Translations under genes and position numbers: made by a program
The notes under the pieces: generated by a model
What the model was told of the DNA's origin: nothing
What the model saw: only the letters and a program-made list of their open reading frames with translations
Databases searched by the model: none
IMG/VR virus record: IMGVR_UViG_3300042559_000733
Span: 1 to 47,996 of that record
DNA from: a virus
DNA: 47,996 nt
Strand: one strand, 5' to 3'
Shown here: in pieces, positions 1,227-40,500 of the stretch
Layout of the letters: each line of letters begins with the position of its first letter
Numbering within the stretch: position 1 is the stretch's first letter

Positions 1227-2294
1227 TTACAGAACCATTGAGTTAATTTTTCCAAACACTTCATTTAACCATACCATACTATTTGGAAAATTATTTTGCA
1301 TACAGTCTTCCACCAACAATTTACTAAAACCAAACCTGTCAAGTTTAACGATTGGTTTTTCCATAATTTCATTGATTCTCAATTGCGAGAATGATTGAAT
1401 TTGTGTATCATGCAATTGCATTAAATCATAATTACGTTGCATGATGTCTTTATTTTCCAACACTGTATCATACAATTTCAACTTACCTTTATGAGTATCA
1501 CTGTAATTGTATAATTCTTGTAAGGAATATTGTTTATCTTCTGTAAGAATAGGATAACATTTGATAATAGTTTTTAACCCGGCACCTTTAATACCGTCAA
1601 TATTATCACTACTATCTCCTTCCATTACTCTATAGTTGATAAAGTTCTTACAACTAATACCATATTCCAATAGAATTTCTGCACAACCATACAATTTCTT
1701 TTTGGTTGGACTCCAAATTTTAATTCTATCACCGGCTAGTTGTAAGAAATCTTTATCGGCACTCATAATAGTAACATTACTATTCTTAAAGTACTCTTTA
1801 GCCAAATAAGCAATTGTGTCATCTGCTTCAATATGATCAATTGCCATAGTTGTAACAGGCAATTTATCCAAGTATTGTACAGTTCGTAACAATTGTTTCT
1901 TTAGATTTTTATCTTCTGTATCTGGAGTGGTAAGATCATCATAAGCTCTATTAAGCCTAATCTTAGTCTTTCTACCACTCTTGTATTCTGGATAAATCTT
2001 CCGTCTTTTCAGTGAACCCCCTTGGCCATCAGACACAATCACAATCTTTGTAGGATTGATTAATTTTGCTGCATAACCAATGCTTTTTAAGCACCCTGCA
2101 ATTCCACCAGTATGATTACCATTGGAATTGAGGGAGGGGGAGGCCATGAACGCTCTAATAAAAGTGTTCATGAAATCAACAATTAATACTTCAGAATCAG
2201 ATGATCTATTCAATCCGCCAACTCTGTCTTCTTGTTTTACATTATCGAATAACGAAAACAACCTCTTTTTTTCACTGTCAGATAGATTACTCAT
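1227..2294 (-). CDS. FEN-type 5'-3' exonuclease (T4 RNase H-like)
   Basis: Predicted 355-residue flap nuclease that would remove RNA primers and 5' flaps during lagging-strand synthesis. Metal-binding acidic residues of the family are visible: D40 in LIVDFMNTF, D89 in IVSDG, E156/D158/D159 in HIEADDT, D180 and D182 in MSADKDF, and D227/D230 in GDSSDN. The last group leads into a helix-hairpin-helix-like GIKGAGLKT. I chose the ATG at 2292-2294, which overlaps the end of the upstream uvsX-like gene by eight bases (ATGAGTAA); a longer in-frame extension to 2348 would lie entirely inside that gene and looks spurious. Length is close to T4 RNase H (about 305 residues) with an extra N-terminal 30. 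Function of the family is well established. Confidence 0.9.
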   Translation of the reverse strand: MSNLSDSEKKRLFSLFDNVKQEDRVGGLNRSSDSEVLIVDFMNTFIRAFMASPSLNSNGNHTGGIAGCLKSIGYAAKLINPTKIVIVSDGQGGSLKRRKIYPEYKSGRKTKIRLNRAYDDLTTPDTEDKNLKKQLLRTVQYLDKLPVTTMAIDHIEADDTIAYLAKEYFKNSNVTIMSADKDFLQLAGDRIKIWSPTKKKLYGCAEILLEYGISCKNFINYRVMEGDSSDNIDGIKGAGLKTIIKCYPILTEDKQYSLQELYNYSDTHKGKLKLYDTVLENKDIMQRNYDLMQLHDTQIQSFSQLRINEIMEKPIVKLDRFGFSKLLVEDCMQNNFPNSMVWLNEVFGKINSMVL

Positions 2295-3438
2295 TCTCAG
2301 ATGATACACCAGCATCTTCATCATTGTCAACAACTGCGTCATCAACAATAATACTATTTGGATCTTTATATTTCATGACTACAGCATCACAAATCTTTAA
2401 GTAAATTTCTTCACTCAAAATTTTATCCGTTTTCATTGATTCTACAAAGTCCTTGGTCTGGAATTTCCATTCACTTCCATCATCTTTCTTGTAGGTATAA
2501 TAAGCACCACCTTGTTTTACCAAGTTGTTTTCTTTCAATACTTTGATCCAACTGCCATAATCAGCAATTCCACTATCAAAGTAAATATCAAAAGCAGCTT
2601 GACGTTGTGGTGGACCCATACGGTTCTTGATAACAACTGCTTTACACTCATTACCAATAACTTCTTCACCCTTCTTTAGTTTGCCAGTGTTGTTCAAACG
2701 AACACGAACACTACAATGATAAGCAAGTGACTTACCACCACTTACTACCCACTTATCACCAAATGCCATAGCATTTAGATTCTGACGTAATTGATTGGTG
2801 AATACAGTAAGAACCTTTTGTTTACCAATCATATTAGTGATCTTACGCATTGCTTTACTGATAATAATAGATTTACCAGTAGCAAATCCATCCTTACCGT
2901 GATCACTTTCTAGTTCTGCCTTTGTGGAAGCAGCAGCAACAGAATCAACAATGATTGTAAGAATACGGTCTTTATTGGACTTACGAACAATTCCAATCAT
3001 ATGTTCCATCTTTTCAAAAATATCTTCAACGGTTTCACATTGAACATATAGAAGTTTAGATAGATCTACACCAAGACTTTTCCAGAATTCAGGAGCAGCT
3101 GCATTTTCAGTGTCAATTACTACTGCTACACCACCCTTCTTTTGTGTATCTGCAACAACATGTGCGGATACTAGACTCTTACCAGTTCCTTCCAAACCAT
3201 TGAATTCAACCATCTTTCCAACTGGCAATCCACCGTGAGGACGATTGCTAATAGCTAGATCAAGAATAGAAGAACCTGTACTAATCCAATCACTAATTTC
3301 TGCTGGATTTTCCTGTTCATCCAAGAAATAAGCAATTTTACCACCATCTTTATTTGCTTTATTTAACTCGTTTGCGAGTAATTCAACTAACTCATCTCTT
3401 TGAGGAGTATCTTGCGTAACTTGATTTTTCTTTTTCAT
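2287..3438 (-). CDS. uvsX: RecA/UvsX-like recombinase
   Basis: A 383-residue recombinase expected to coat single-stranded DNA and drive strand exchange for recombination-dependent replication and repair. Walker A is GLEGTGKS at 81-88, Walker B is LTIIVD at 160-165, and a sensor-type Gln sits in TNQLRQN near 214-220. The stretch around 178-190 resembles the DNA-binding L2 region, and the C-terminus is acidic (many D/E after residue 365). It lies between the SSB gene and RNase H, and its TAA overlaps the ATG of the latter, so the two are probably translationally coupled. T4 UvsX is 391 residues, so size matches. It could equally be called a phage RecA; the distinction is not decidable from motifs alone. 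Confidence 0.93.
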   Translation of the reverse strand: MKKKNQVTQDTPQRDELVELLANELNKANKDGGKIAYFLDEQENPAEISDWISTGSSILDLAISNRPHGGLPVGKMVEFNGLEGTGKSLVSAHVVADTQKKGGVAVVIDTENAAAPEFWKSLGVDLSKLLYVQCETVEDIFEKMEHMIGIVRKSNKDRILTIIVDSVAAASTKAELESDHGKDGFATGKSIIISKAMRKITNMIGKQKVLTVFTNQLRQNLNAMAFGDKWVVSGGKSLAYHCSVRVRLNNTGKLKKGEEVIGNECKAVVIKNRMGPPQRQAAFDIYFDSGIADYGSWIKVLKENNLVKQGGAYYTYKKDDGSEWKFQTKDFVESMKTDKILSEEIYLKICDAVVMKYKDPNSIIVDDAVVDNDEDAGVSSENE

Positions 3439-4396: not shown

Positions 4397-4422
4397 CAAT
4401 ATATATGAAACCCGAAAAGATT

Positions 4423-19284: not shown

Positions 19285-19313
19285 ATACAATAAATATCCT
19301 TATATAAAATAAA

Positions 19314-23802: not shown

Positions 23803-24132
23803 TTAACTTATTTCTGTGCCGAATAGGTTAAATGATTGGCTAATGGATGATGCGTAAACTTGAACTTTATCATATTGTCCAAGCGTCATACCGATTGTTA
23901 ATGCGATACTATCGTTTGCTGGTACAACAGTATCATATGCCAAATAACTTTTAGCTTGAAGTGATGAACCTGATGATAACACTGCGATTCTGAATGTACC
24001 ATTTGTTGCGGATAAATTGGCTATATTTAGTGTTGAACATACTGCGGATGTTGCAGCAGGTACTGTATATAAATCGGTACTGGATGTTAAAGCAGGATTT
24101 GATTGTCCTAAAATTTTATATGTTGTTGCCAT
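23803..24132 (-). CDS. Small beta-sandwich fibre-associated protein
   Basis: 109 residues. ATTYKILGQSNPALTSSTDLYTVPA, then STLNIANLSATNGTFRIAVL, YDTVVPANDSIAL and VYASSISQSFNLFGTEIS follow the pattern of a small family I recall from marine T4-like phages next to fibre genes. It is all beta, with no signal peptide or membrane segment. It is likely a virion decoration or fibre connector protein. It lies one base from the glycine-rich gene. Function unproven. Confidence 0.7.
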   Translation of the reverse strand: MATTYKILGQSNPALTSSTDLYTVPAATSAVCSTLNIANLSATNGTFRIAVLSSGSSLQAKSYLAYDTVVPANDSIALTIGMTLGQYDKVQVYASSISQSFNLFGTEIS

Positions 24133-24159: not shown

Positions 24160-25374
24160 TTACCCCAACAAAAATGGATGAAATGATTCTCCAGAAGGAA
24201 CATTTATAACACAACTAGCTGTTAATGCATAACTACTAGTTACCATTACATTCGTATAATCAAGAACATTTACATACACTCTGTCTACAGATGCGCTTAA
24301 TTGTCCTGAACCACTTAATGGTTGTCCACTAGCAGTCATCTTTCTTATTTTTAATGAAGAATTCGATAACTTTTCAACGCCATAATCAACATTACTATCA
24401 TTTAAACCTCCTACTAATCCAATATATTTTGTTTCATATTGGGGTATCGTTCCTTGTGTATCCGGAAATGCAGAATCTGGTACTGTAAAACTACTTGTAT
24501 ACCTAGCTACACCTTTTGTTATTCTTAATTCATCTATATATCCGTTCCAATATTGCGGAATAGCTGATGATCCTATTGCTAAATTGCTAGCAGTTAGTGT
24601 GCCTGACACATTTCCTGTACTAGCATCTTGTACACCATTTATATAAAAACGCATAGTTGAACCAGATCTTACCAATGCTACATGGTTCCATGCACCGGTA
24701 GTGATAGCAAGTGTAGAAACTACATAACCCGAAATCCCCCAATTTCCGGCCTCTAGGTTTCCAGTAGTATTTACTAAATATATTGGTGAAAAAACGCCAG
24801 TGCCTGACCGATTAGAAATTATACCTGCATATTGTACAAATGATGATCCACCGGACCAATATACCCATGTTTCTATTGTAAAATCGCCAGTAAATGTAAT
24901 TGTCGAAGGTAATGTTAAATAATCATTTGTACCATCAAAAAATCCACTTGTACCTCCAAATTTACTAATAGATGATGTGATTTTGGCACCATTATTTGAT
25001 GTAATTGTAAGATTATTGGGACCACTATCTGTAAAAGTCGTACTGCCATCAGATCCACTAAAATGCATTAACAAACTACAACTTGGATAAAAAATGTCAC
25101 CAGGAACGGAACCACTATTCCATTCTTCAATTACAGTTACACCCCATTTATTGCTTGAAAGATTTAATCCAGAAATGATATTATCTTGTGAAGTTGTAAC
25201 ATTGTATAAAACTGTTTGATTTGCAATGCTACCTGTTTGAACTGCACCACCGCTTCCACCAGAACCACCATTCATTGCGTATGATGCGGTTATTGCATAA
25301 CTTGATGTACCTTGAAAGGTTGAACCTGTTGAAATTAAACTGGGTGATACTTTTGTTTTTCCTAGTGTAGGCAT
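24160..25374 (-). CDS. LamG tail fibre, single long cassette
   Basis: 404 residues. Order: leader with SSYAITASYAMN (24-35), Gly/Ser hinge (36-44), a beta segment QTVLYN...KWGVTVIEEWNSGS, SCSLLMHF near 98-105, a LamG domain with FFDGTNDYLTL and TIETWVYW up to about 300, and a closing unit KYIGLVGGLNDSNVDYGVEK, LKIRKM, SASVDRVYVNVLDY. The last residues are FHPFLLG, similar to the end of the 1127-residue fibre. The same cassette occurs four more times in this locus. Likely a trimeric receptor-binding fibre; the short length suggests a side fibre or tip. Confidence 0.82.
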   Translation of the reverse strand: MPTLGKTKVSPSLISTGSTFQGTSSYAITASYAMNGGSGGSGGAVQTGSIANQTVLYNVTTSQDNIISGLNLSSNKWGVTVIEEWNSGSVPGDIFYPSCSLLMHFSGSDGSTTFTDSGPNNLTITSNNGAKITSSISKFGGTSGFFDGTNDYLTLPSTITFTGDFTIETWVYWSGGSSFVQYAGIISNRSGTGVFSPIYLVNTTGNLEAGNWGISGYVVSTLAITTGAWNHVALVRSGSTMRFYINGVQDASTGNVSGTLTASNLAIGSSAIPQYWNGYIDELRITKGVARYTSSFTVPDSAFPDTQGTIPQYETKYIGLVGGLNDSNVDYGVEKLSNSSLKIRKMTASGQPLSGSGQLSASVDRVYVNVLDYTNVMVTSSYALTASCVINVPSGESFHPFLLG

Positions 25375-25393
25375 ATTCTATAAATATAAAATT

Positions 25394-26116
25394 TTATAAT
25401 CCAAATCTAGTTCTTGTTGCGTTGAAATTTTGTAGTACTTCGGATGCAGTTAATGCTCTATTATATACTTGAGCAATAGCAACATTGCCAGGAAAAAATT
25501 GACCGGGAGAACCTAAAGAACCACCCATTCCTACCATTAAAGATTGTGCATCGGTTGACCATTTAATAGTAAAGGTTGAGACAGCAACACCATTTATATA
25601 AAATATTGCATTATTAGACGGCGTACCAGTGTTAGTTGTAAAAGTCATTGTTAGATATTTCCATTGCCCATCAGCAATAGATACGCCCGAATTTCTAAGA
25701 ACTCCATTACCCCAATCATAAGTAGCTAAATTACCGCCGTAAACAAATAAACCATAGTTTGATTGTTTAACTAAAATGCCGTAGTAATTTACAGTCGTAA
25801 TTGTGGTTTTAGCCCAAGCTGATATTGATCCTTGGGTTATTTGTAAATTTGAAGAATTATTACAATTAACATAATCATTGGTGCCGTCAAATACTATACT
25901 ACCTTTATATGTATTATCAAAAGTGGGTCCATTTGTTAATGTACCGTTATTTCCATAACCACTTAAATCTGTCCATGTTGTACCAGTACCAGAATAACTA
26001 GAAAGATCGCCAGCGTCTAGATATAAAATTGATCCTGAAGTGATAGTAACTACAGTATTTGTACTATTAAATCTAGAACCTGTTAATTTTCTTTGTGATG
26101 TTGTTTTTAAACTCAT
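25394..26116 (-). CDS. Short LamG-domain adhesin, paralogue C
   Basis: 240 residues from the ATG at 26114-26116, which lies four bases after the stop of the long fibre upstream; a longer reading to 26173 overlaps that gene and begins with unrelated residues, so I rejected it. One LamG domain: ILYLDAGDLSSYSGTGTTW, LSGYGNNGTLTNGPTF, VFDGTNDYVN, then ISAWAKTTI and the ending LQNFNATRTRFGL. It is the third copy of the short type (with 21268-21933 and 21943-22614) but stands apart from them, so the copies have been shuffled. Ligand unknown. Confidence 0.8.
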   Translation of the reverse strand: MSLKTTSQRKLTGSRFNSTNTVVTITSGSILYLDAGDLSSYSGTGTTWTDLSGYGNNGTLTNGPTFDNTYKGSIVFDGTNDYVNCNNSSNLQITQGSISAWAKTTITTVNYYGILVKQSNYGLFVYGGNLATYDWGNGVLRNSGVSIADGQWKYLTMTFTTNTGTPSNNAIFYINGVAVSTFTIKWSTDAQSLMVGMGGSLGSPGQFFPGNVAIAQVYNRALTASEVLQNFNATRTRFGL

Positions 26117-26120
26117 AACT

Positions 26121-29100
26121 TTACATTCCCGCCAATAAAAATGGACTAATAATATCAACTGTAGAACCACCACTTGAATTTAAAGCATAACTAGCAGTAA
26201 CAGCATAACTACTTGTAACTGCATTAGTTATACTTCCAGATATCGAAATATTATCATAACTCAATACATTTACATATACCCTATCAACACTAGAACTTAA
26301 AAATGAACCACTTGGTTGTTGTGTATCGGTTAATTTCTTAATCTTTAATGATGTATCCGATAACTTTTCAATTCCATAATCAACATTACTATCATTTAAT
26401 CCACCAACCAAACCAATGTATTTAGTAGCAATTTGTGTTGCACTATTTGGAAATGCTGATGTTGGTACAGAAAAACTTGCAGTGTATCTACAAAATCCTA
26501 CTGTTACTCTCATATCATCTATATAACCAGATGCATATGAATTATCATTTGGGTTGTATGCGATTGTACTACCAGTTGTAATTCCACTACCAAAATTAAA
26601 GCTTGTGGGTAATGTATGTGTTGTTGATAATGTGCCATCCATAAACAACCTTAATGTTGTTCCTGTACGACTAGCAGCAATATGATGCCATAATCCATCA
26701 TTTGGATTTACTGATGTATTAACATCGACGAATCCAGAATTATAATACGCAAATGAAAGGATATCACTTGTGAATCTATTTTTTAATCCCCAAGCATTAT
26801 TAGTTCCACTTGGGAATTTACCAATAAGCATTGATTGATTTCCACTTGTACCTTCTGATTTCCACCAACATTCAATTGTCCAATCAACTGTTCCAAGATT
26901 ACCAACACTTGTATTTAATACCAAATAATCTCCTGTACCATCAAAATAAGCACTAGCTCCACCAAATTTATATTGTGATACACTCAATTTTGCATTACCA
27001 CTTGATGTGATTGCAAAATTATTTCTACTATTATCAATAAAATTACCGAATGAATTTACACTATCAAAATGACATAATAAACTGCAACTTGGATAATAAA
27101 TATCACCGGAACCACTATTCCATTCCTCTACAACAGTTACTCCCCATTTGTTTCCTGTCAAATTTAATCCAGTCAATGTTGATTCTTGACTGCTACTGAA
27201 ATTATAAAGAATGGTTTGATTTGCAATACTACCTGTTTGTAGTGTAGTGTTACCGTTCAAGAATCTTACATCAATTTCATCACCGTCACTATATGGTTGA
27301 TAAAAATTAAGTGTTGATCCTGTAACAGTATAACTTGAACTATAATTTTGAACAACGCCGTTAACTGATACCAAAAGATGTGCGGGATTGCTTACACTTT
27401 GTGTTAATGTATATTGTGTAGTACCACTTCCACTTACAACAATATATTGTCCAACAACAGGCGAACCGGTAATATAACTTATACTACCACCTCCACCGGA
27501 AGCATTCAATGCATATGATGCGGTTGTTGCATTGTTGCTCCAACTGCTTGTAATTGGATAAGTACTACCTGTTGTTAATGTTGTTCCACCACCTCCACCA
27601 TTTAATGAAAATGAAGCCGTCAACGCATATGAACTACTAATACTATTTAAATTATAACTGGATGTAACAGCAAAACTTGAACTGATTGAATTTAGATTGT
27701 AACTCGCAGTTGATGCAAATGAAGCAGTCAATGTATTAGTAGCCCAACTAGATGTACCAAAAACACTGCCGGTAAAACTGCTACCACTAATATTTCCATT
27801 CACCTGTAATTTAGCAATAGGATTATTTGTACCAATTCCAACTCTACTACCTGTAACAACTAATGCGTTTGAATTATATGTACCCACCACCAACCTATCA
27901 TCACTAAATACTTCCAATATTGGTAAACCACTAACATCATTTACACTCATCAATGACCCACTCAAATTGTCATCTACACTGAATAATGAACCTTGTGTTC
28001 CTTCTACGCTAAATACAACTGATCCTGAAACTAATGAACCACTACTATTGATATTTAATTTGCTATTTGGAATTGTTGTACCAATACCAATATTACTACC
28101 AGTTTCATATATAACACTGTTTCCTATAGAAGTACCTGATGTAAATTTAGATATATAATTGGTTGAACCAGTTACTGTTCCACTACCACCTCCACCACTA
28201 GCAGCATTTAACGCATATGAAGCAGTTAAAGCATTAGATGCATATGAAGCAGTAATTGCATTTGAAGTGTTTAAAGAAAATGATGATGTACCTAAAAATC
28301 CAACACCACTACTTACACTTGATGTAAAACTACTAGCACTAATATTACCACTTACTTGTAATTTAGCCACCGGAACAGATGTACCAATTCCAACTCTACT
28401 ACCTGTAACAACTAATGCGTTTGAATTATATGTTCCAACTACAAGTCTGTCGTCACTAAATACCTCCAATATTGGTAAACCACTAACATCATTTACACTC
28501 ATTAAGGAACCACTAAGATTATCATCTACACTGAATAATGAACCTTGTGTTCCTTCTACACTAAATACGACGGAACCAGATATAAGTGAACCGCTGCTAT
28601 TGATGTTTAGTTTACTATTTGGAACCGTAGTACCAATACCAATATTGCTTCCACTTTCATAAATTACGCTATTGCCTACTGCGGTTCCGGATGTAAATTT
28701 AGAAATATAATTTGCAGAACCAGTTATTGTTCCACTACCACCTCCAGAATTATTTAATGCAAATGAAGCGGTTAAAGCATAAGATGCGCTTGTTGCACTA
28801 TTGGCACTAGTTGCAGTTGATGCGAAATTTGAATAACTACTAGATATTGCATTATTTGACCAACTGCTTGTTATAGGATATGTACTGCCTGTTGTTAATG
28901 TTGTTCCACCTGCACTATTTAATGTGAATGAAGCTGTCAGCGCATACGAACTACTAATACTATTTAAATTATAACTGGATGTAGTAGCAAAACTGCTACT
29001 AACTGAAATTGTTGCATAACTTGCACTTAAACTAGCAGTAATCCCTATAATTTCGATTTGACCAGACGCAGTATTTAATGTTACTACTGGACTTTCATTC

Positions 29101-29504
29101 GCAAATAACGTTGATCCAGATGTACTTAATACTGTTTCTCCGATGTAAATACTACCTGTACTTACATACAAATCTTTCCATTTATTCGTTGGTGAACCTA
29201 GACTATATATAGACCCAGTGGATGGTATTAAACTTTGTGATATTGGGTCTAAATAACTAGCAGTGGATGAATTTCTTGAATAACTTGCACTAGTTGATGT
29301 ATTACTATAACTGGAAGTGGTTGAATTTAAACTATAACTGCTTGAAATTGAATTATTTGACCAACTACTTGTAATTGGATATAAACTACCTGTAATTAAA
29401 GTGGTTCCACCGCTTCCTGCGCTTGAACTAATTGCATATGAAGCGGTAATTGGGTAAATTGACCCAGTTTCTAATTGGTCATATTTTAATTGATTGAGTG
29501 CCAT
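26121..29504 (-). CDS. Long tail fibre with SSYALTASY repeats, internal duplication and LamG tip
   Basis: 1127 residues. The first 220 are low-complexity Ser/Thr/Tyr/Ala repeats (SISSSYALTASF type) and a segment with KWKDLYVSTGSIYIG shared with the 1186-residue fibre. Two near-identical blocks of about 140 residues follow (GTVTGSTNYISKFTSG to GTNNPIAKLQVNG), then more repeats, a beta unit (YTLTQSVSNPAHLLVSVNG), a LamG cassette near 760-1080 and the end SPFLLAGM. It is probably an extended trimeric shaft with a carbohydrate-binding tip. The duplicated block lengthens the shaft. Spacing to its neighbours is tight; no chaperone domain is visible. Confidence 0.82.
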   Translation of the reverse strand: MALNQLKYDQLETGSIYPITASYAISSSAGSGGTTLITGSLYPITSSWSNNSISSSYSLNSTTSSYSNTSTSASYSRNSSTASYLDPISQSLIPSTGSIYSLGSPTNKWKDLYVSTGSIYIGETVLSTSGSTLFANESPVVTLNTASGQIEIIGITASLSASYATISVSSSFATTSSYNLNSISSSYALTASFTLNSAGGTTLTTGSTYPITSSWSNNAISSSYSNFASTATSANSATSASYALTASFALNNSGGGSGTITGSANYISKFTSGTAVGNSVIYESGSNIGIGTTVPNSKLNINSSGSLISGSVVFSVEGTQGSLFSVDDNLSGSLMSVNDVSGLPILEVFSDDRLVVGTYNSNALVVTGSRVGIGTSVPVAKLQVSGNISASSFTSSVSSGVGFLGTSSFSLNTSNAITASYASNALTASYALNAASGGGGSGTVTGSTNYISKFTSGTSIGNSVIYETGSNIGIGTTIPNSKLNINSSGSLVSGSVVFSVEGTQGSLFSVDDNLSGSLMSVNDVSGLPILEVFSDDRLVVGTYNSNALVVTGSRVGIGTNNPIAKLQVNGNISGSSFTGSVFGTSSWATNTLTASFASTASYNLNSISSSFAVTSSYNLNSISSSYALTASFSLNGGGGGTTLTTGSTYPITSSWSNNATTASYALNASGGGGSISYITGSPVVGQYIVVSGSGTTQYTLTQSVSNPAHLLVSVNGVVQNYSSSYTVTGSTLNFYQPYSDGDEIDVRFLNGNTTLQTGSIANQTILYNFSSSQESTLTGLNLTGNKWGVTVVEEWNSGSGDIYYPSCSLLCHFDSVNSFGNFIDNSRNNFAITSSGNAKLSVSQYKFGGASAYFDGTGDYLVLNTSVGNLGTVDWTIECWWKSEGTSGNQSMLIGKFPSGTNNAWGLKNRFTSDILSFAYYNSGFVDVNTSVNPNDGLWHHIAASRTGTTLRLFMDGTLSTTHTLPTSFNFGSGITTGSTIAYNPNDNSYASGYIDDMRVTVGFCRYTASFSVPTSAFPNSATQIATKYIGLVGGLNDSNVDYGIEKLSDTSLKIKKLTDTQQPSGSFLSSSVDRVYVNVLSYDNISISGSITNAVTSSYAVTASYALNSSGGSTVDIISPFLLAGM
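27781..28196. repeat. Direct repeat, copy 1 (inside long fibre gene)
   Basis: Matches 28333-28748 at a constant offset of 552 bases with scattered, mostly silent differences. Because the offset is a multiple of three the frame is kept. Confidence 0.88.
28333..28748. repeat. Direct repeat, copy 2 (inside long fibre gene)
   Basis: Second copy of the block at 27781-28196. The protein copies are nearly identical while the DNA differs at many third positions, so the protein is under selection after duplication. Confidence 0.88.
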
Positions 29505-29547
29505 CTATATTAAATATCATGAATTTAATATATCCGGCCAAACATTT

Positions 29548-29841
29548 TTAATTTGGTTTTGGATACTTTTGTTTTATTGGATCTATTATATTAATTTTCC
29601 ACGCATCAATTCCGTTATGATAGATATAATCCATTTGTTCACTAATAGAGGGATATTCTTTTTTTCTGTTTTCTTGACACAATCTCAATGCAAAACTAGG
29701 TATTTGATTGACATTTGTTTCATTACCCACACAATCATTTAATATAATACGAGAATGTCCTGGTCCAGGTTCCGCATCACCTGTTCCTTCTACCACTTTA
29801 AGTGTAATATCACCTGTAATATCATTATATAATACTATCAT
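29548..29841 (-). CDS. Small fibre-locus protein with YPSISEQMDYIYHNG motif
   Basis: 97 residues. The C-terminal half EYPSISEQMDYIYHNGIDAWK...KYPKPN is a widespread phage signature (YPs...QLDxxYHxGxdxWK) which I associate with small proteins beside tail-fibre genes, sometimes called XkdW-like. It may help fibre assembly. The N-terminal half (IVLYNDITGDITLKVVEGTG) is a beta hairpin. It lies between two long fibre genes, four bases after the 993-residue one. Role inferred from context only. Confidence 0.75.
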   Translation of the reverse strand: MIVLYNDITGDITLKVVEGTGDAEPGPGHSRIILNDCVGNETNVNQIPSFALRLCQENRKKEYPSISEQMDYIYHNGIDAWKINIIDPIKQKYPKPN

Positions 29842-29845
29842 AAAA

Positions 29846-32827
29846 TTATGTTCCTACTGTTGTTCCACTAGGTCTTACTATTAAACCACCTACAGCCGTT
29901 GAATAAGTTGTTACCGCTGTTAATCCTGTATTTTGTACTTGTATAATTCCTCCATATGCTAAATATGCTATATTTGAATTTGTTCCTTGAGAATTTGTGT
30001 CAGCTGTAATGATTCCGTTATATACCGAAACTATATATCTATCCATAGAAGTAAAATAAGAATTTCTTACCCAAATTGCTGCTCTACCTTGTGCTAATAC
30101 ACCATTGCCCGAACCGACAGTAGTCGATATCGGATAATTTGTAAACGAACAATAATTTACTATTGCATTGGTATTTTCTACAGCTAAACCGTTTTGATAT
30201 GTACTTGTATTGACTGCAAACCTTAAATAATTTACTTCGGTATATGTAGAATTGGTTCCAATAAAAATTGGTGCAGATCCACTTAGTGTTACATTTTTAG
30301 ATGCTGCTACAGTATTATTTGAAGAATTTCCGTATATAAAAAGATTTCCATTTGAAAAACTACCAAATTGTAAACCTGTAGATAAATTATAATTACCATC
30401 TGCAAATTGAAATGTTAATGTTTTACCACCTAAATTTCTTGGTTGCGCATCAATCAATGCTTGCATTTGAGCAGTGGTAAATGAACTACTAAATGCAACA
30501 GTTCTGTTGGATGTTAATATTTGACTTCCATCTGTCAAATAAGATGAAGTAATTGCATAACTAGATGATACGGCATAACTAGCAGATTGTGCAGTAGTTT
30601 GTACTTCTTTATAATTTAATACATTTACATACACTCTGTCTACAGAAGCACTAATAAATGGAGAACCACTAACAGGTGTACCACTTACAGACATTTTTCT
30701 AATTTTTAGTGAACTGTCACTCAATTTTTGAACACCATAATCTGATCCTGTGTCATTAAATCCGCCAACCAATCCTACATATTTTGTTTCATATTGTGGT
30801 AATTGATTTGGAAATTCAACAGATTGTGGTGTAAAACTGCCAGTATATCTAGCTACACCTTTTGTTATTCTAAACTCATCAATGTAACCATTCCACAAAT
30901 ATGATGTACTATAATATCCACCAATTGCTAAATAAGTTCCTGTATAATTTGTTGTATCTGTTATTGCACCTGATGAACCAATATCTGTAACTAAATTTCC
31001 ATTGAAATAAAATTTTGTTACTCCACTGCTTCTTACCAACGCATAATGATACCAAGTATTCACACTACCACTTATTGCAGTGGATATATAATATGTAGTA
31101 TTTGCATATATACCGACTCGTCCATTGACATTGGTATTGATAGATAAATTTGGTGATGTATAACTTTGCAATCCACCTGCCGTAGCAGATAATTGTAAAA
31201 TACCATTATCTCCACCTGAAATTCTATAAGCCCAACATTCAATTGTAAAATCACCTGTACCTAACGCATAATCACTTACACTTGGACTAGTTAAATAATC
31301 TCCGGTACCGTCCAAATAAAGACTTGAACTACCAAATTTACTTTGTGCAGTACTTATTTGTGCATTTCCATTAACAGTAAATGATTTTGGCGTAGGACTA
31401 TTGTCTATAAATGTAGTACTACCATTGCTGCCACTAAAATGCATCAACAAACTACAGCTTGGATAATAAATGTCACCTGAACCACTGTTCCATTCTTCTA
31501 TAACACTAACATCCCATTTATTTCCTGATAAATCTAAACCTGTTATTGTATTTTCTTGACTGGTAGTTACATTATATAATATTGTTTGATTGGAAATACT
31601 ACCAGTTTGAATTCCTCCCAATACATAACTAGCTGTTAACGCATAACTACTAGTTACCATTACATTTGTGTAATCTAATATATTTACATATACTCTATCA
31701 ACTGAAGCACTTAAAGCACCAGAACCACTAAGCGGTTGACCACTTGCAGTCATCTTTCTTATCTTTAAAGAACTATCACTTAACTTTTCAACACCATAAT
31801 CTACGCTTGAATCGTTCAAACCACCAACCAATCCAATATACTTAGTTGCATACTGGTCAACACTTGCATTATTATAAAATTCCGCAGATTGTGTAACAAA
31901 ACTGCCTGTGTATCTAGCTATACCTTTTGTTATACGAATTTCATCCATATAACCATTAAAATATTCTGCACCAGGACTGACAGAAAAATAATCCCATACA
32001 CCTATTCTCAAGGTTTGTGAACTGGCCGCTGGTGTATTTAATGAATTAACTGTACCTGCTAATGTTCCATCTATATAAACTGTACCAGTTGTTCCTGATT
32101 TTACCATTGCAAAATGATGCCATATATTATTAGATGGAGTAGTAACATCTACATATTGTTCATTTGCATTTGTAGTTGCATAAAAATAAAATCTTATTGA
32201 TGCACCGATCCCTCTAATTGAAAATGATAGTCCTGACCAATTTGTATTATTATAATAACCTCTATGTAAATAACCACCACCTCCGAAATTTGAACTATAT
32301 GCCCAAAATTCAATTGTATAATTTCCAGTCAAATCAAATACTGAGTTACTTGCTATAGTAAGATAATCATTTGTACCATCAAAAAATCCACTTGTACCTC
32401 CAAATTTACTAATAGACGATGTAATTTTAGCACCATTACTTGATGTAATTGTAAGATTATTGGGGCTATTGTCAATAAATGTTGTACTATCATTACTACC
32501 ACTAAAATGCATTAATAAACTACAACTATTATAATAAACGTCACCAGGTATAGAACCACTATTCCATTCTTCAACTACTGTTACTCCCCATTTATTGCTT
32601 GAAAGATTTAGACCTGATATGACATTATCTTGTGAAGTTGTAACATTATATAATATGGTTTGGTTTGCAATGCTGCCTGTTTGAACTGCACCACCTCCAC
32701 CACCAGAACCACCATTCAATGCATATGACGCAGTTGTTGCATAACTAGCAGTACCATTTAATGATCCTGTTAGTGGATAATTAGATGGAATACTAATTAA
32801 CTGTGATGTAATTCTGGTTAGTGGCAT
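29846..32827 (-). CDS. Tail fibre with two LamG cassettes
   Basis: 993 residues. A short leader (SLNGTASYATTASYALN) and Gly hinge lead to cassette 1 (about 50-395: NQTILYN, SCSLLMHF, FFDGTNDYLTI, a LamG fold, DRVYVNILDY). Cassette 2 runs from about 410 to 745 (NQTILYN, SCSLLMHF, YLDGTGDYLTS, DRVYVNVLNY). The remaining 240 residues are a different tip: ARG-type beta repeats (ILTSNRTVAFSSSFT, FIYGNSSNNTVAASKNVTLSG, NYLRFAVNTSTYQNGLAVEN) that look like a right-handed parallel beta-helix. It may therefore both bind and perhaps act on a surface glycan; no catalytic residues can be assigned. Confidence 0.82.
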   Translation of the reverse strand: MPLTRITSQLISIPSNYPLTGSLNGTASYATTASYALNGGSGGGGGAVQTGSIANQTILYNVTTSQDNVISGLNLSSNKWGVTVVEEWNSGSIPGDVYYNSCSLLMHFSGSNDSTTFIDNSPNNLTITSSNGAKITSSISKFGGTSGFFDGTNDYLTIASNSVFDLTGNYTIEFWAYSSNFGGGGYLHRGYYNNTNWSGLSFSIRGIGASIRFYFYATTNANEQYVDVTTPSNNIWHHFAMVKSGTTGTVYIDGTLAGTVNSLNTPAASSQTLRIGVWDYFSVSPGAEYFNGYMDEIRITKGIARYTGSFVTQSAEFYNNASVDQYATKYIGLVGGLNDSSVDYGVEKLSDSSLKIRKMTASGQPLSGSGALSASVDRVYVNILDYTNVMVTSSYALTASYVLGGIQTGSISNQTILYNVTTSQENTITGLDLSGNKWDVSVIEEWNSGSGDIYYPSCSLLMHFSGSNGSTTFIDNSPTPKSFTVNGNAQISTAQSKFGSSSLYLDGTGDYLTSPSVSDYALGTGDFTIECWAYRISGGDNGILQLSATAGGLQSYTSPNLSINTNVNGRVGIYANTTYYISTAISGSVNTWYHYALVRSSGVTKFYFNGNLVTDIGSSGAITDTTNYTGTYLAIGGYYSTSYLWNGYIDEFRITKGVARYTGSFTPQSVEFPNQLPQYETKYVGLVGGFNDTGSDYGVQKLSDSSLKIRKMSVSGTPVSGSPFISASVDRVYVNVLNYKEVQTTAQSASYAVSSSYAITSSYLTDGSQILTSNRTVAFSSSFTTAQMQALIDAQPRNLGGKTLTFQFADGNYNLSTGLQFGSFSNGNLFIYGNSSNNTVAASKNVTLSGSAPIFIGTNSTYTEVNYLRFAVNTSTYQNGLAVENTNAIVNYCSFTNYPISTTVGSGNGVLAQGRAAIWVRNSYFTSMDRYIVSVYNGIITADTNSQGTNSNIAYLAYGGIIQVQNTGLTAVTTYSTAVGGLIVRPSGTTVGT

Positions 32828-32843
32828 ATTTTATATAAATATA

Positions 32844-33116
32844 TCAAAATGGTGGATTAGGGTCAGTCCATTCTGGTGTGGCTAATATAGTTAATATTTC
32901 TGTATAAGTATATGGTCCTTCTTTTGTTGTCATACTGTTGAAGAAATCAGGTGTTGGTCCATCCCATTTACAAAATGTTTTGGTGCCGTCAACACTTTTT
33001 CTTACAGTGTCAATTGAAGTTTCGTGTACTTTAGTGAAATCTACAAGATTCAATTCGCTTACATTGAATATCATAAATTCTCTATCCTCATATATCGTTA
33101 CATTTGTTTCACTCAT
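32844..33116 (-). CDS. Small conserved protein, GPYTYTEIL family
   Basis: 90 residues. The motif order TFCKWDGPTPDF, TTKEGPYTYTEIL and TPEWTDPNPPF is one I recall from many marine T4-like phages near structural genes, always as an uncharacterised protein. No signal, membrane segment or catalytic motif. The N-terminal half (NVTIYEDREFMIFNVSEL) looks like a beta hairpin. The 43-base gap upstream (33117-33159) is pure AT. Function unknown. Confidence 0.72.
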   Translation of the reverse strand: MSETNVTIYEDREFMIFNVSELNLVDFTKVHETSIDTVRKSVDGTKTFCKWDGPTPDFFNSMTTKEGPYTYTEILTILATPEWTDPNPPF

Positions 33117-33159
33117 AATTTTAATTGATTTAGTATTACTTATATTAAATATTGTTATG

Positions 33160-36100
33160 TTATTTATTTTCTAATTGTGATATTCTATTTTCTAATATTT
33201 CAATTTTTTCAAGTAAATGTTTAATTACTTTACTGTGATATGGAGTTACTTGTTCATAATTCATAACAAACTGAGCATCTTTTGGATTAATAAATCCATC
33301 CGATTCAATTATTTCTTCCATTCCTTCTTTTTTAACTATCCCGACTAAATGATCAAACCCAGATTTATATACTTGTTGTGCGGAATAACCAGTCTTTGTT
33401 CCAGCATCTACACCATCTTTCCACTTATATTTGATTGATATTACTTTATTAACAAAGTCAACTGCTTCATTTAATGGTATTTCACCATCAATATTCTTCA
33501 ATCTTTCATCGGATGGCGCATCAAACTCTTGTGCCATGATTCTGCTATCACATGTAAGACTATATGGATTTGGAGATGTACCTGTAGTGGTACCGGCGCC
33601 ACTACTAATCAAATAACCATATGGTTGTGTAATTGCTGCACTAACACTACCTACAATCGTTACAAATCCTTTTTGTATACTAGTGCCAATACACATACCA
33701 CCAGTAGATCCACTTTGTCCATTTACAACAAACATACCAGAACCAGAACAGTTTAACCAAAGATTTGTGCCAGGACTTGTACTATGTAAATGAACATTGC
33801 CATCGTCAAAGAGCAAACCATGATTACCAACTTTTAATCCTGCACCTGTATTTCTTAATTGTGTGACATTTGCAGATTGTGCAGTTGGCAATTGTAATGA
33901 ACCACTGTCAGTTAGTGTAAATATATTTGTACCATAATTGCTATTAATTATTTCTAAGTTGCCAGTATCATTTAAACGGAAATATTTATTTGGATTTAGG
34001 ACACTTGCACTTGTATTGCTTACATATAAGAAATCATGATATGCACTACCACCTTTGGTATTTTGTCCTGTAATTGTTAATGTTCCATTAGTTGATGTAC
34101 CTGTACTACCAGAACTATTTATATTTAAAGTTGTTACTGTATAATTGTTTGTTGTCGTCAAATTACTTGCGGTAAATGAATTAGTAGACCAACTAGATGT
34201 AAATGCATAACTAGCAGTTGCTGATGTATATGACGATGATATTACAGTCAAATCAATTGGCCAAACCAATCCTGTACCATAAACATTAATAACTTTGCTG
34301 GAACTAAATTCCAATCTATATGTTAAACTAGCAGTATTCTGTGATGTTAAATTTATATCATTACTGTAAATAAACTTACCAGTTTCATACGAACCTCTTT
34401 TAATCAAACTAGCAGTAGTATAAGAAATACCACCGTTATTTGATAAATAAAACTTTAAATCTTGATTTATTACCCAAGGATCATCATCGTTGTTTTCAGC
34501 AAATATTAACGCTCTTACTACAGAAGGATATACAACAGAACTACTAATTGTTCTAATTGGATATGAAGTTAAACTGTTAACACCCCCCACATTATTATAA
34601 TATGACTTATTTATAGAATCCCAAGATGCACTTACAACCGTTGCTAATGTATTATATACATAATAATTGTCAACAAATCCATCTTCTATGTTTGGATCAA
34701 CCGCAGTAGTTGTTGTTAAACTTGACGATTCAAATGATGCAGTAACAGATGCAACAGATACATTTGCTACAGTATATTTCAATAATTGATTTCCCAAACC
34801 ACCTGCACCACCCGCACCACCAGTACCATATAAACTACCCACACCACCTGAACTAGAAGTACCACCCGCAATACTAAAAGTTCCAACCGAATTTACATAA
34901 TTGGATTTTACTAACACTGCACCACCTGCACCCGCACCACCGCCACCACCACCGTCATCTGATGAAGTACCGTTTACACCTCTACTTCCTGTAGATTGTA
35001 TTATTGATGCGTTGTTAAAATTATTCGCATAAATTAATACTATGCCGCCGCCAGAACCACCAATTCCACCAGATCCATTAACAGCTCTACCGCCGCCACC
35101 ACCGCCACCACCAAACATTAATAGTGTAGTACTAGTATTATATGCAGTACCACCAGAACCGCCTAAATTTACACTGTATGATGAATTTGAACCAGCTGAT
35201 CCATTTGTTCTATTTGCACCACCACCGCCACCACCACCGCTTCTGTTATTTGCGGTATCACCAGAGTTATTACCACCACCGCCACCGCCGCCTCCACCAA
35301 TACTTGTGGTTGCGGATCTACCTAATCTTGAACAAAATGCAACACTGTTTACTCCTTGATATGATTCTGCTCTGTCACCTGCAGGAGATGGAGTTGGAGA
35401 CTGTGTACAACCAGCTCCACTATCATTAATACCACCCACGCCAAATCTAAAACCTTTACCATTTGTATTAATTGAACCACTATTAATTAATGTGTCACAT
35501 TTAAATGCTACTATACCACCTAAAGATCCGCTCCAATTATTTGCAGTTAATGAACCAGCAGACGTAATTGTTACGGTCGAATAATTCGGAACTCTTTGTA
35601 ATGTGATTTTTTGATTTCCTAATACAGAATTGCCAGATTGACCGTATGATCTAGAAACTGGAGAATTAAAAGAAATTACATTGGTCGATATACCAGACAC
35701 TCTCAGAAATTCATAATTGCCAACATTACTATAATATGTTGTGTCTCCTTGTACATTTATCAACAACATTTCATCTCCAACTGCAACACCTGTTACAGAA
35801 GAACCAGATACAGTAATATTTGATGTTGATGATGATGATGTAATTGCAGTGACTAAATAAGCAACACCATCTGCTACGGTTCTACCAGAGGCAAGTGTAT
35901 CTGTAGATATGTTTTTTGCTGTTGATATAGTTATAAGACCATCTGCTTGTGTACCATAATCATTTGATACAATTGAAATTAATTGTTCTGGTTTTCTTTC
36001 ATATGTTAACAGAACGTTATCGTATAGATTGTTTAATAATACATCGTAAACAATTATAGTTGAGCCTGTACCACCGCCGCCTCCATTAAGTGCATATGAT

Positions 36101-37494
36101 GATGTTAATGCGTAACTTGCACTATTAACATTTGGGGTAGTTAAGAATCTGATATCAACCAAAGATCCCGATGGAATATTTTCTGTAAAATTAATGGTTG
36201 AACTAGTAACCGTATAAGCATTGTTGAAAGCTTGTACTGCGCCATCAACTGCGACAACAATTTCATATGAATTTACAACACTTCTTGATAATGCGTAGCT
36301 GGATGTACTTCCTACTGCGGTAAATGCTTGACCCAATAATGGTGAACCTGCACTTATATTATTATAATTCAATACATTAACATACACTCTATCTACTGAT
36401 GAACTTAAAAACGAACCACTTGGTTGTTGTGTATCTGTTAATTTTTTGATTTTTAATGAACTATCACTTAGTTTTTCAATGCCGTAATCAACATTAGTAT
36501 CGTTTAACCCTCCAACCAATCCAATATACTTTGTAGCAGTTTGCGTTGCACTATTTGGAAATGCTGTTGTCGGAACAGAAAAACTTGCAGTATATCTTGA
36601 TATACCTTTAGTAATTCTAAATTCATCTATATAACCATTAAATGATCCGCTAGTACTATCAAATGTTCCAATTCTTGACCGTGGAAATCCACCATTGGCC
36701 GTAATTGATCCACTATAACTTGCACTATTATTTAATGTACCGTTTATAAATAATCTAAGTATATTGCTTTGTCTTGTTACTGCGATATGATTCCAATTTC
36801 CATTTGCAACAGAAACACTTCCTGAAAAAATTCTATTTGTATCATACAAACCTATACTACCATTTGATGATTCAAGAAATATTTGAAAATTGCCGGCCGC
36901 TCCTGCTGCCGGTCCATCTGTCATATATATTCTCCTTATAAATCCACCTTGAGTTGAAAAAACTGTTGTAGCAACCCATGTTTCTATAGTAAAATCGCCA
37001 GTACCAAAAGCAAACGCAGAACTAGCACTGATATCTAAATAATCACCGGTTCCATCAAAATACGCACTTGCATCACCGAATTTGTAATTTGCAAAGCTTG
37101 GGGAAATAGTACCAGATGAAGTTATTATATGATTATTTCTGCTATCGTCGATAAATCTGCCTGCAGAATTTAAACTATCAAAATGCATTAATAAACTACA
37201 GCTTGAATAGTAAATGTCACCAGAACCACTGTTCCATTCTTCTACAACATTGATTCCCCAGTTATTATTTGTGAGCGTCAAACCTGTAATTGTAGCTTCT
37301 TGACTGCTGCTAAAATTATAAAGAATCGTTTGGTTATTTAAACTCGCTACACTTACAACAGGTGTACCTCCACCACCACTGCCACCATTCATTGCATATG
37401 ATGATGTAACAGCATAACTAGCAGTTCCTAATAAAGAACCTGTTATAGATCCATTTGGTTGAATTAATGATTGTCGTAATCTTGTAAATGGCAT
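33160..37494 (-). CDS. Giant tail fibre with LamG, glycine-rich domain and S74 self-cleaving chaperone
   Basis: 1444 residues. Order: leader SSYAMN and Gly hinge; a LamG cassette (about 50-390); a beta unit; a glycine-rich domain about 721-901 with GGGGGGGG runs; further beta regions; SSYTSATASYAF repeats; and an intramolecular chaperone domain at the C-terminus. The last begins with SDERLKN, the Ser-Lys dyad of the peptidase S74 family (S1328 and K1333), and ends in a coiled coil (IEILENRISQLENK). In this family the chaperone trimerises the fibre and then cuts itself off before the Ser. Cleavage would leave about 1327 residues on the virion. Confidence 0.88.
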   Translation of the reverse strand: MPFTRLRQSLIQPNGSITGSLLGTASYAVTSSYAMNGGSGGGGTPVVSVASLNNQTILYNFSSSQEATITGLTLTNNNWGINVVEEWNSGSGDIYYSSCSLLMHFDSLNSAGRFIDDSRNNHIITSSGTISPSFANYKFGDASAYFDGTGDYLDISASSAFAFGTGDFTIETWVATTVFSTQGGFIRRIYMTDGPAAGAAGNFQIFLESSNGSIGLYDTNRIFSGSVSVANGNWNHIAVTRQSNILRLFINGTLNNSASYSGSITANGGFPRSRIGTFDSTSGSFNGYIDEFRITKGISRYTASFSVPTTAFPNSATQTATKYIGLVGGLNDTNVDYGIEKLSDSSLKIKKLTDTQQPSGSFLSSSVDRVYVNVLNYNNISAGSPLLGQAFTAVGSTSSYALSRSVVNSYEIVVAVDGAVQAFNNAYTVTSSTINFTENIPSGSLVDIRFLTTPNVNSASYALTSSYALNGGGGGTGSTIIVYDVLLNNLYDNVLLTYERKPEQLISIVSNDYGTQADGLITISTAKNISTDTLASGRTVADGVAYLVTAITSSSSTSNITVSGSSVTGVAVGDEMLLINVQGDTTYYSNVGNYEFLRVSGISTNVISFNSPVSRSYGQSGNSVLGNQKITLQRVPNYSTVTITSAGSLTANNWSGSLGGIVAFKCDTLINSGSINTNGKGFRFGVGGINDSGAGCTQSPTPSPAGDRAESYQGVNSVAFCSRLGRSATTSIGGGGGGGGGNNSGDTANNRSGGGGGGGANRTNGSAGSNSSYSVNLGGSGGTAYNTSTTLLMFGGGGGGGGRAVNGSGGIGGSGGGIVLIYANNFNNASIIQSTGSRGVNGTSSDDGGGGGGAGAGGAVLVKSNYVNSVGTFSIAGGTSSSGGVGSLYGTGGAGGAGGLGNQLLKYTVANVSVASVTASFESSSLTTTTAVDPNIEDGFVDNYYVYNTLATVVSASWDSINKSYYNNVGGVNSLTSYPIRTISSSVVYPSVVRALIFAENNDDDPWVINQDLKFYLSNNGGISYTTASLIKRGSYETGKFIYSNDINLTSQNTASLTYRLEFSSSKVINVYGTGLVWPIDLTVISSSYTSATASYAFTSSWSTNSFTASNLTTTNNYTVTTLNINSSGSTGTSTNGTLTITGQNTKGGSAYHDFLYVSNTSASVLNPNKYFRLNDTGNLEIINSNYGTNIFTLTDSGSLQLPTAQSANVTQLRNTGAGLKVGNHGLLFDDGNVHLHSTSPGTNLWLNCSGSGMFVVNGQSGSTGGMCIGTSIQKGFVTIVGSVSAAITQPYGYLISSGAGTTTGTSPNPYSLTCDSRIMAQEFDAPSDERLKNIDGEIPLNEAVDFVNKVISIKYKWKDGVDAGTKTGYSAQQVYKSGFDHLVGIVKKEGMEEIIESDGFINPKDAQFVMNYEQVTPYHSKVIKHLLEKIEILENRISQLENK

Positions 37495-37507
37495 ATTATT
37501 ATATATA

Positions 37508-40500
37508 TTATGGAGTCATATAAACCATACTAAATGAAGTTGCAGATGATGATGCGCTATTTGTAATAGCAGCACTTGTATTTGAATAAAACTGTATATA
37601 ATCGGTTGTTCCATTAAAATAAACTAAAAATGATATTGATCCTTGGACAAATCCTACACCACCATTGCTTACAATTCTATTGCCGTTTTTAAAAAGTCCT
37701 AAATATCCTTCCGAACTTGAAGACCCACCATAAACTCTTGCTGATCCACAAACCATATACCAGCCAGCTACATTTGGTGTAAATCTACCATTCGAATTAT
37801 CATACCAACTAGTTGAATCGCTTACTGCCGTATCGTATTTTATAATTGTATCGGCATAACCACCGGGATTTACAATACTTGTTGTACCATATCTATAAAT
37901 AGCTGTTCTAGGAGCACTTGTTGTAGAAAAGCTAGATGTTAAAGCATAACTGCTACTAACAGTCGATCCTCCACTTGATGCACCTCCTAAAAATCTTACA
38001 TCAATATTTGAACCAGAATCTGCATTTTCTGTTAAAGTTAAAGTTGAACCTGAAACAGTATAACTGCCTGTTCTGGATTGAACCAGTCCGTCTAATATTA
38101 CTAAAATTTGATCATTGTCACTTACACTTTGTGTTAATGATAATTGACTTATAGAAGCAGATGGTACAAATGTTTGTCCAATTATACTAGATGTTGACGA
38201 TGAACCCCCACCCCCAGCAAAAAGCGCATATGAAGCTGTTAACGAATACGAACTACTAATTGAATTTATAACATAACTTGCAGTGGTTGCAAAACTAGAA
38301 CTGGTAGAATTGACTGTACTAGCAACATAACTACTGCTTATACTATTATTGCTCCAACTTGCAGTTATTGGATACGTTGATCCAGTTGTTAATAATGTAC
38401 CGGCATTTGATGCAAATGATGCGGTTAAAGCATAACTTGCACTGGTTGCTGCATTAGCACTATTTGCAGTATTTGCTGAAGTAGCGGTTACTGCTGCATT
38501 GGCAACAAATGCATAACTGGAAGTCAATGCGTAACTTGCACTGGTTGCACTATTTGCAGTTACTGCCGTTGTTGCGTTTCTTGCATAACTAGAAGAAAAA
38601 GAATAACTGGAACTTATTGCATTTAAAGCAATACTAGATGTATTAGCAAAACTTGAACTCAACGATGATGTGATCCCTGCAACTTCAATTAACCCAGATG
38701 ATGTATTGAATGTTACAACAGGCATAACATCGGAATATAATGTAGAACCGGATGTACTTAATACAATATTACCAATGTAAATACTGCCGGTACTTACATA
38801 CAAATCTTTCCATTTATTGGTTGGTGATCCTAAACTATATACTGAATTACTAATTGGAGTCAAATCTTGAGCAACAGGACTCAAATTACTAGCAGTTCTT
38901 GCATAACTACTACTAATAGATACACTACTAAAACTACTAGTCACAGCATTACTTGCCAAACTACTTGTTCCTAATAAACTACCAGTAATTGATGTAGCAT
39001 TTATAATTGCAGCAGTAATACTATTAGTTGCATTTAAACTACCAGATAAAATATAAGACCCCACTAATGTTTTGCTATTTACCCACTGTGTACCATTTCC
39101 ATAAGTTAATAAATCACCTTGACTTACACCAGAAATAGCAACGTCACTCAAACTATCAAGATTTGTTGCGGATGGTGATGTTCCTCCATTTCCTATACCA
39201 CCAACACTTCTAAACAATCCGGCTTGAACTATTGTAGATTTGCCAGCGGTAATTAAATCGGTACAATCACCTTCAGCAATCACATATGCAGTCAATATCG
39301 CATTTAATGCAGTATTAGGCGCTTCTGTAAATGCTTCTGTATTTACACCATTTTGTGCATCAAGCAATGTACCATATACTAAATTGCCATAATACACCAA
39401 AAATGCGTTAGTAGGACTATTTGGTATCCAAAATACTCTTTGAATAGTGAACTGATTAGCACCACTACCACTTAAAGCAGTTAAAGTTCCATTATTGTTA
39501 TATTTGGTAATATCTAATGTAGGATATCCAGCATTGCCAACACCTGTATCAATTACAGCAGTGCTTCCACTCATGTAGTACCGAAATATTTTGCTACTGG
39601 TTATTGCATTTTCGGTAACCGAACTTGGATGATTTGGATTTATGTTATAATTTGCACCTTCACGAAATGATACACCACCTGTTTTTGTAATTCCTAATGT
39701 ACTTCCACTTGCTTGTATTGTATGTCCGCTGATTTTAAGTGAACCAAATGCTCTAACAAAATCATCAGTCTTTTGTGGATATCCATAACTGATTTGTGGA
39801 CTATTAAATACGCCTGTGCTAACACTTCCACTCAAATGTAAAACCACACCAAGATGTATTTCAGTATCCCACTGGTCAATATCATTACTACCCCAAGCAT
39901 TTGTTTGTTGTACTATTTGACCAGTACTATCTATACCAATATAAGTAATTTGTGCACTAGCACTATAAATCAATGGTATATTAGTATAATTCCCCCAATC
40001 AATTTCTCTAATAGTAGGATTTGGATCACTACCAGTGGTAGCATTCATTGAAACGATTAGTCCACTGCCACTTGCAATATTAAATGTTGTTGAACCGGGA
40101 GTACTAGTAAGTGTTCCGCCAAATAATATGCCGGTGTACATATTGCTGTCCAACCAACTTAGTCTGGTTGTGCTAGTATGTATTCCGTTATAGTGTCTGA
40201 AATAAAGATCATTTGTACTATCATTTGTAAAAATATAACTTGCAGTAACATTTGATGGTATTGAACTACTTGTTATAGGAAACAATTGAATATATGCATT
40301 ACTACCACTAAGATGTATTGGTCCGCTACTGGTAATATTATTGAATGATGTATTGGTACTTGAAATACTATTTGCACTAATATTACCACTTGCACTTATA
40401 TTACTTGAAGTAACATTTGTTGCATTTACTGTTCCTCCTGACAAATTGGTTGCGGTTGAACTATTTGCAGTATAACTTGAACTTATACTATAGCTACTTG

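Follow-up and report, generated by a model that had tools for sequence, protein, structure and literature searches.

The stretch analysed here, a 47,996-base IMG/VR virus record (IMGVR_UViG_3300042559_000733; hereafter the window, meaning this whole stretch), carries a tailed-phage gene set in which four minus-strand fibre genes lie in the tail module, adjoined by genes for tail tube, baseplate hub and tape measure. Five cassettes of ~335 amino acids (aa) are spread over these four genes, in each of which a LamG domain of ~220 aa is flanked by conserved parts, ~45 aa long on the N side and ~70 aa on the C side. The two conserved parts are called here the N and C halves of a carrier, and the variable LamG interior the core.

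24160..25374, minus strand: gene A (404 aa), with head MPTLGKTKVSPSL, one cassette and a constant tail ending ESFHPFLLG; the slot adjoining gene 23803-24132
24244-25239, minus strand: cassette A
25060..25239, minus strand: cassette A N flank (carrier N half and first LamG residues)
24433..25059, minus strand: cassette A variable LamG (Pfam Laminin_G_3)
24247..24432, minus strand: cassette A C flank (carrier C half)
26121..29504, minus strand: gene B (1127 aa), with head MALNQLK, a long SSYALTASY shaft and one C-terminal cassette
26244..27239, minus strand: cassette B (N flank 27066-27239, LamG 26427-27065, C flank 26247-26426)
29846..32827, minus strand: gene C (993 aa), with a head, two tandem cassettes and then a C-terminal region
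31658..32683, minus strand: cassette C1 (N flank 32504-32683, LamG 31847-32503, C flank 31661-31846)
30599..31609, minus strand: cassette C2 (carrier 31478-31609 and 30599-30808 around LamG 30809-31477; boundaries from structure comparison)
33160..37494, minus strand: gene D (1444 aa), with a cassette near the N terminus, a glycine-rich region and Peptidase_S74 near the C terminus
36352..37350, minus strand: cassette D (N flank 37180-37350, LamG 36535-37179, C flank 36355-36534)
23803..24132, minus strand: conserved 109-aa gene after the cassette array, used as slot anchor; 90-100% identical and in the same place in 9 relatives

The first-pass annotation of this DNA had described five copies of one cassette in four genes, and these copies are real. 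Gene A, searched against the window's own record, found exactly five places at E 8e-83 or better, and flank hidden Markov models (HMMs), which were built from these copies, hit each of them at E ~1e-36 to 1e-40, so that chance is excluded. Laminin_G_3 (PF13385) scored 60.1-122.8 bits in all five copies, above its curated cut-off of 27.6, with two stretches in gene C. Across the 10 pairs of window copies, aa identity was lowest in the core (26-44%), against 52-88% in the N flank and 57-94% in the C flank; in A/C1, the most alike pair, the N flank had 88%, the core 41% and the C flank 94%. Divergence along the cassette is therefore very unequal, as the annotated pattern of conserved ends and a differing middle had implied. 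The variable block is smaller than had been thought, comprising the inner LamG and not the whole domain, since conservation extends to both LamG ends, SCSLLxHF...FDGT.DYL and GYIDELRITKGVARYT. The quoted motifs are present, some copies having substitutions: B, C2 and D match EEWNSGSGD letter for letter, A and C1 read EEWNSGS(V/I)PGD, and FDGTNDYL is exact only in A and C1. The description of one scaffold bearing different tips fits genes C and D, where the cassette lies directly behind an N-terminal head, and fails for A and B, where the cassette itself is C-terminal. Pfam confirmed the Peptidase_S74 domain of gene D; the supposed beta-helix tail of gene C had no Pfam or PHROGs match at E 0.01.

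A structure was predicted for C2 from 38 aligned sequences, with a mean predicted local distance difference test score (pLDDT) of 86.3 and a predicted template modelling score (pTM) of 0.73. The modelled carrier strands are 4-14, 19-23 and 32-40 in the N half and 275-279, 281-283, 291-297, 300-305 and 323-332 in the C half. Fold comparisons, which covered residues 45-267 only, placed the LamG domain at these residues. Within it, predicted residues 48-264 matched the jelly-roll of arabinanase AbnA (domain 4) with Z 21.4, a root-mean-square deviation of 2.3 and 189 residues aligned, and the domain also resembled the tailspike of cyanophage Pan3 (Z 17.2; predicted model). The model fits insertion of LamG into one carrier domain, the two halves of which would pack together, as read from confidence and strands and not from coordinates. 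Many toxin-domain rows among the fold comparisons were ascribed to the common jelly-roll fold, and nothing was drawn from them. Entropy was 2.3 bits in the core versus 0.65-0.75 in the flanks. Within LamG, variability did not differ between strand and coil (1.94 versus 1.89 bits) and peaked at model residues 131-180 and 231-240.

Scans with the flanks recovered the carrier on 23 virus contigs, to which the N-flank scan added none; a wider C-flank alignment found 8 more contigs, and the genome collection 1 contig. Deduplication left 27 distinct complete cassettes, five from the window and 22 from relatives, with 205-222 aa between flanks; L122 and L013, which are cut by the contig end, were left out of the cassette counts. 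Eleven further, more distant cassettes were all in the order N half, LamG, C half, the most distant of them with weak N-half matches (E 1e-6 to 3e-4). Empty carriers or other inserts were found in none of 38 distinct carrier pairs, the scans being seeded by carrier peptides, so that divergent forms may be missed. When the search was seeded with LamG (one core), 7 of 80 loci carried the carrier, all on known contigs, and the carrier was present at 2 of the 91 loci retrieved with cores A and D, a known pair. By these counts the carrier is narrow in distribution and LamG broad. Gene A matched 381 isolate phage records, the best 40 of which fell within residues 72-330, essentially LamG. Among 50,697 isolate phage records the carrier C half had no match and the N half only two, at E 0.5. 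Comparison of the 27 cores with 162 carrier-less LamG loci gave a best match of 70% nucleotide (nt) identity over 364 nt (L043), and in this sample there is thus no sign of a core having recently come from outside the carrier group.

Exchange of cores was observed between relatives of the window. Cores were more alike than their own flanks in 6 of the 351 cassette pairs. In the clearest of them, cassette 2 of L010 and cassette 2 of L029, the DNA of the core was 98% identical and that of the N and C flanks 62% and 67%; identity shifted within a few codons at SLLLHFSGSNGS on the left and within ~20 codons after GYIDELRITKGVARYT on the right. The reverse arrangement, like ends around unlike cores, was just as clear: L010 cassette 2 and L011 cassette 1 combine cores of 51% identity with flanks of 98% and 95%, and L006 cassette 3 and L011 cassette 2 combine cores of 45% with flanks of 96% and 96%. 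In the quartet L010 cassette 2, L011 cassette 1 | L029 cassette 2, L029 cassette 1, all informative sites of the N flank and of the C flank favoured one grouping (51:0 in each) and all those of the core the other (0:54), which is a clean double crossover.

The same separation of carrier and core was seen in the collection of cassettes. Genome labels clustered on the carrier tree, where they needed 16 changes and only 1 of 300 shuffles did as well, and were not clustered on the core tree, where they needed 19 and 116 of 300 shuffles did as well. Approximately unbiased (AU) tests on the carrier alignment rejected two core groupings (p 5.5e-77 and 2.9e-4). Nearest-partner painting gave different N-flank and core partners in 22 of 27 cassettes, where most core partners were ~45% nt identical and hence noise; among the 11 cassettes with a core partner of at least 65% nt identity, 8 differed and 3 agreed.

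The slot next to the 109-aa gene was compared in the 11 contigs that carry this gene, giving 55 pairs, 19 of which involve L013 or L122 with cut cores and were compared over ~150-165 nt. Core identity was bimodal: 6 pairs had 0.99 or more, and the other 49 had 0.71 or less. L006, L007 and L013 had neighbouring genes 98.3-98.7% identical to those of L122 and a core identity of 0.62 (partial); L011 versus L009 and L014 gave 98.1-98.2% (two genes) and 0.58 (full), and the window versus L012 gave 92.8% and 0.53. At a neighbour identity of 99.3-99.7% the cores were identical. Replacement is thus seen from 1-2% divergence upward and not below.

Cassette number varies between strains. In the window and L012 the slot gene has a single cassette; L011 has two, L009 three, L006 three or more and L008 two or more. 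In all 11 contigs read the gene ends in ESFHPFLLG. Its head is of the gene A type in L012 and L011 and of the gene B type in L009 and L015; the remaining contigs are cut before the head. The fused gene of L015 can be followed in its DNA, which runs from window gene B (29495 to 27480) through a C2-like N flank and an unmatched core into the C flank and tail of A and the next gene (24552 to 23704). Recombination between cassettes of neighbouring genes would produce such a fusion.

In L006 cassette 2 and the L012 slot cassette, which have related cores, the ratio of nonsynonymous to synonymous divergence (dN/dS) was 0.57 in the core, against 0.02 in the N flank and 0.07 in the C flank. For three window pairs the flank dS was ~0.5 to over 2, and on account of this high silent divergence the window copies are not recent duplicates, and the likeness of their flanks reflects constraint more than recent copying. 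Window core dN/dS values near or above 1 (A-C1 1.07, C1-C2 1.48) were given no weight, as the core alignments are unreliable. The proposal that the cassette spread by duplication is upheld by the tandem copies and the clustering of carriers within genomes, and not in the sense of recent copying. The accompanying idea of a swap-ready scaffold is supported, given that cores were exchanged between relatives with the carrier kept, and that a recombination signature is present among close relatives in the quartet double crossover and the bimodal core identity.

The cassette is probably an adhesin unit of two nested domains, in which the constant carrier is a socket and the LamG tips are replaced by recombination. 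A small carrier domain, formed by the N and C halves, would hold a lectin-like LamG inserted between them. Purifying selection would keep the carrier constant, and the carrier would link the unit to fibre shafts and adjacent cassettes; LamG would be the variable part, probably glycan-binding. Because all carriers and all LamG ends share sequence, homologous recombination could replace LamG, the partners being co-infecting phages or copies within one genome. The same recombination would alter the tandem copy number and fuse neighbouring fibre genes. The window encodes a protein that may act in this exchange.

2287..3438, minus strand: UvsX-like recombinase, a candidate agent of homologous exchange encoded by the phage itself

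A broader version, in which the carrier would be a dedicated socket fold that this phage group keeps solely for holding an exchangeable LamG, each virion would display several different lectins simultaneously, a population-wide pool of LamG cartridges would be reshuffled between slots, genes and phages by homologous recombination, and cassette number would be under selection, is put forward tentatively and is somewhat doubtful.

Several results weigh against replacement of the LamG tips or blur it. Two quartets with L028 shifted their grouping in the core less cleanly (core 7:12:36 and 11:34:6), and a quartet with three window copies had no clear core grouping (16:15:23). In AU tests on the core alignment, carrier groupings were not rejected in two of three cases (p 0.31 and 0.67; the third 0.043), and one constrained core tree outscored the free tree; since these tests were mostly indecisive and a constrained tree scored better, no reliance can be placed on the core tree. 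Among nine near-identical contigs, eight (L018-L020, L022-L026) had the same cassette and L021 differed at 1 of 1008 positions, so that no exchange is visible between such close contigs. Exchange appears between relatives, and for window cores A and D, the cores scanned for donors (11 loci for A, 80 of 191 for D), no close donor was found, the best viral_contigs matches listed being 37-43% identical in aa. The first structural model, of full gene A with 27 sequences, had a pLDDT of 58.8 and was not used for carrier claims. All the evidence of exchange comes from metagenome contigs.

This last point bears on the possibility that the mosaics are assembly chimeras, made by metagenome assemblers jumping between similar flanks, and the flanks are alike enough in places to confuse an assembler. 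The arrangement recurs, however, in separately named assemblies (L009/L010; L016/L029 and L017/L030; L006/L007), which may come from one project; the core shared by L010 and L029 is 98% and not 100% identical, and its left edge is abrupt, with no long exact match on the outer side. Chimerism is therefore judged improbable. Still less credence is given to an account without any core exchange, by which LamG loops evolve fast in place under diversifying selection and the carrier is constrained. The dN/dS of related cores (0.57 and 0.61, versus 0.00-0.07 in flanks) and the excess of core over flank entropy agree with it, but such evolution cannot yield a 98% identical core between flanks of 62-67% DNA identity, the bimodal distribution among strains or site counts of 0:54 versus 51:0. 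It is refuted as the only process and may act in addition.

More can be said for a reading that gives the carrier no special part, in which the cassettes are conventional multi-domain fibre repeats from old duplications and recombine by the usual fibre mosaicism, although this too seems rather unlikely. Shuffling of tail-fibre domains is common, according to passages of PMC10684548; the window copies are old duplicates, as the dS of the three pairs indicates; and recombination edges also fall within LamG's own conserved ends. Against it stand the 0 of 38 carriers without LamG, the genome-specific sequence that carriers keep and cores do not, and the passage of fusions and copy-number changes through the cassettes. 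A diversity-generating retroelement (DGR) or a site-specific invertase as the driver of variation is scarcely credible. Lectin domains varied by DGRs are known in phage receptor-binding proteins, as PMC10743442 describes, but insertions and deletions are numerous among the cores here and whole domains are replaced, a pattern unlike scattered changes. PHROGs scans of 20 window proteins revealed neither a reverse transcriptase nor an invertase, the window being a fragment whose other open reading frames were outside the scan and no dedicated repeat search having been made. A nested unit with replaceable LamG tips is the preferred explanation.

The record is probably a fragment, and besides the UvsX-like recombinase it encodes a DnaB-like helicase, a single-strand binding protein and a DNA polymerase, together with the tail proteins named above. 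Its tail tube shares 65% identity with the tail tube of Microcystis phage Mel-JY01 and 57% with that of the Flavobacterium phages immuto. This likeness to Flavobacterium phages and a distant carrier held by a contig of a Flavobacteriales metagenome-assembled genome (L142) make a host among the Bacteroidota plausible. Contig L143 shares 97% identity with the window in the tail tube, 40% in the tape measure and 52% in the structural protein of 12255-14849, which points to a mosaic break within the tail module.

Further features were noted in and around the fibre genes. The 109-aa gene, conserved although it adjoins the slot that varies most, may be a fibre cap, adaptor or chaperone, which is a guess. 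Three small carrier-less LamG genes of another type (25394-26116, 21943-22614 and 21268-21933) start with NGLVLYLDAAN or similar and end with LQNYNATKSRFGL or similar; their common DNA start is repeated at 71-75% (repeat family D7), and their number differs among relatives. The gene B shaft contains a 300-base direct repeat (27763-28062 and 28315-28614; 85% identical, spacing 552 bases). A second repeated module of ~60 aa (like VNGVVQ...YTVTGSTLNF...IDVRFL), read from translations, occurs in genes 26121-29504, 33160-37494 and 37508-41068, twice in the last. Within the tail module lie three presumably enzyme-like genes (18439-19290, 19960-20640 and 20637-21239), with what we take to be nucleotidyltransferase-like and phosphatase-like patterns. 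Gene 46454-47113 is on the plus strand amid minus-strand genes, and its protein is presumed to resemble a glycosyltransferase. Among the near-identical contigs, L021 departs from its sisters L018-L026 at 1000-4600, upstream of the cassette gene, at 1468 of 3601 positions in a position-by-position comparison, which an insertion or deletion may explain.

The cassettes offer a concrete, sequence-readable case of a natural phage group that renews its adhesins in several slots at a time when neighbouring genes are still 98% identical. By replacing LamG the virus could plausibly alter its attachment in a short time, and its host range might shift accordingly. If host glycans are what the LamG domains bind, host range could be predicted from the cassettes that a contig carries, and the carrier could serve as a natural holder for testing lectin domains singly in laboratory strains. 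As a sequence, the carrier is also a marker of a phage group that has no isolate in the phage records searched.

Tentaclins and other DGR-varied adhesins share with the cassette a lectin-type variable domain (PMC10743442) but combine a C-type lectin fold with retroelement mutagenesis, in contrast to LamG and recombination here. Domain mosaicism of phage receptor-binding proteins is common, with recent exchange between phages (passages of PMC10684548), a source that is a general survey whose main text lacks the terms lectin, concanavalin and tandem. Phage EfV12-phi1 has in-frame tandem copies of a fibre segment in variable number; according to the passages of PMC6365445 that treat them, its authors hold that these duplications made no sequence diversity, whereas each copy here has a different LamG. 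In gp38 of T-even-like phages, conserved segments likewise alternate with variable receptor-binding ones, and their reshuffling gives chimeric adhesins with different specificity (passages of PMC6630733 and PMC6851490). The variable parts of gp38 are short loops of a polyglycine sandwich at the fibre tip, whereas here a whole LamG lies inside another domain; unlike gp38, the cassette occurs in several tandem copies and in several genes. The ten glycine-rich motifs of gp38 have no counterpart in the cassette, which is without a glycine-rich run; gene D has a separate glycine-rich region. Duplications of adhesin domains have reportedly been described in T4 as well. Among open-licence papers, no title was found that describes such a carrier or the replacement of LamG domains in the fibres of phages. 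The inserted domain itself belongs with the LamG or concanavalin A-like domains of phage structural proteins (PF13385, e.g. Synechococcus phage S-SKS1), with which the shared part is essentially LamG. Since the carrier halves have no convincing match in the 50,697 isolate phage records, what is new here, fibre mosaicism being already well known, is the nested carrier.

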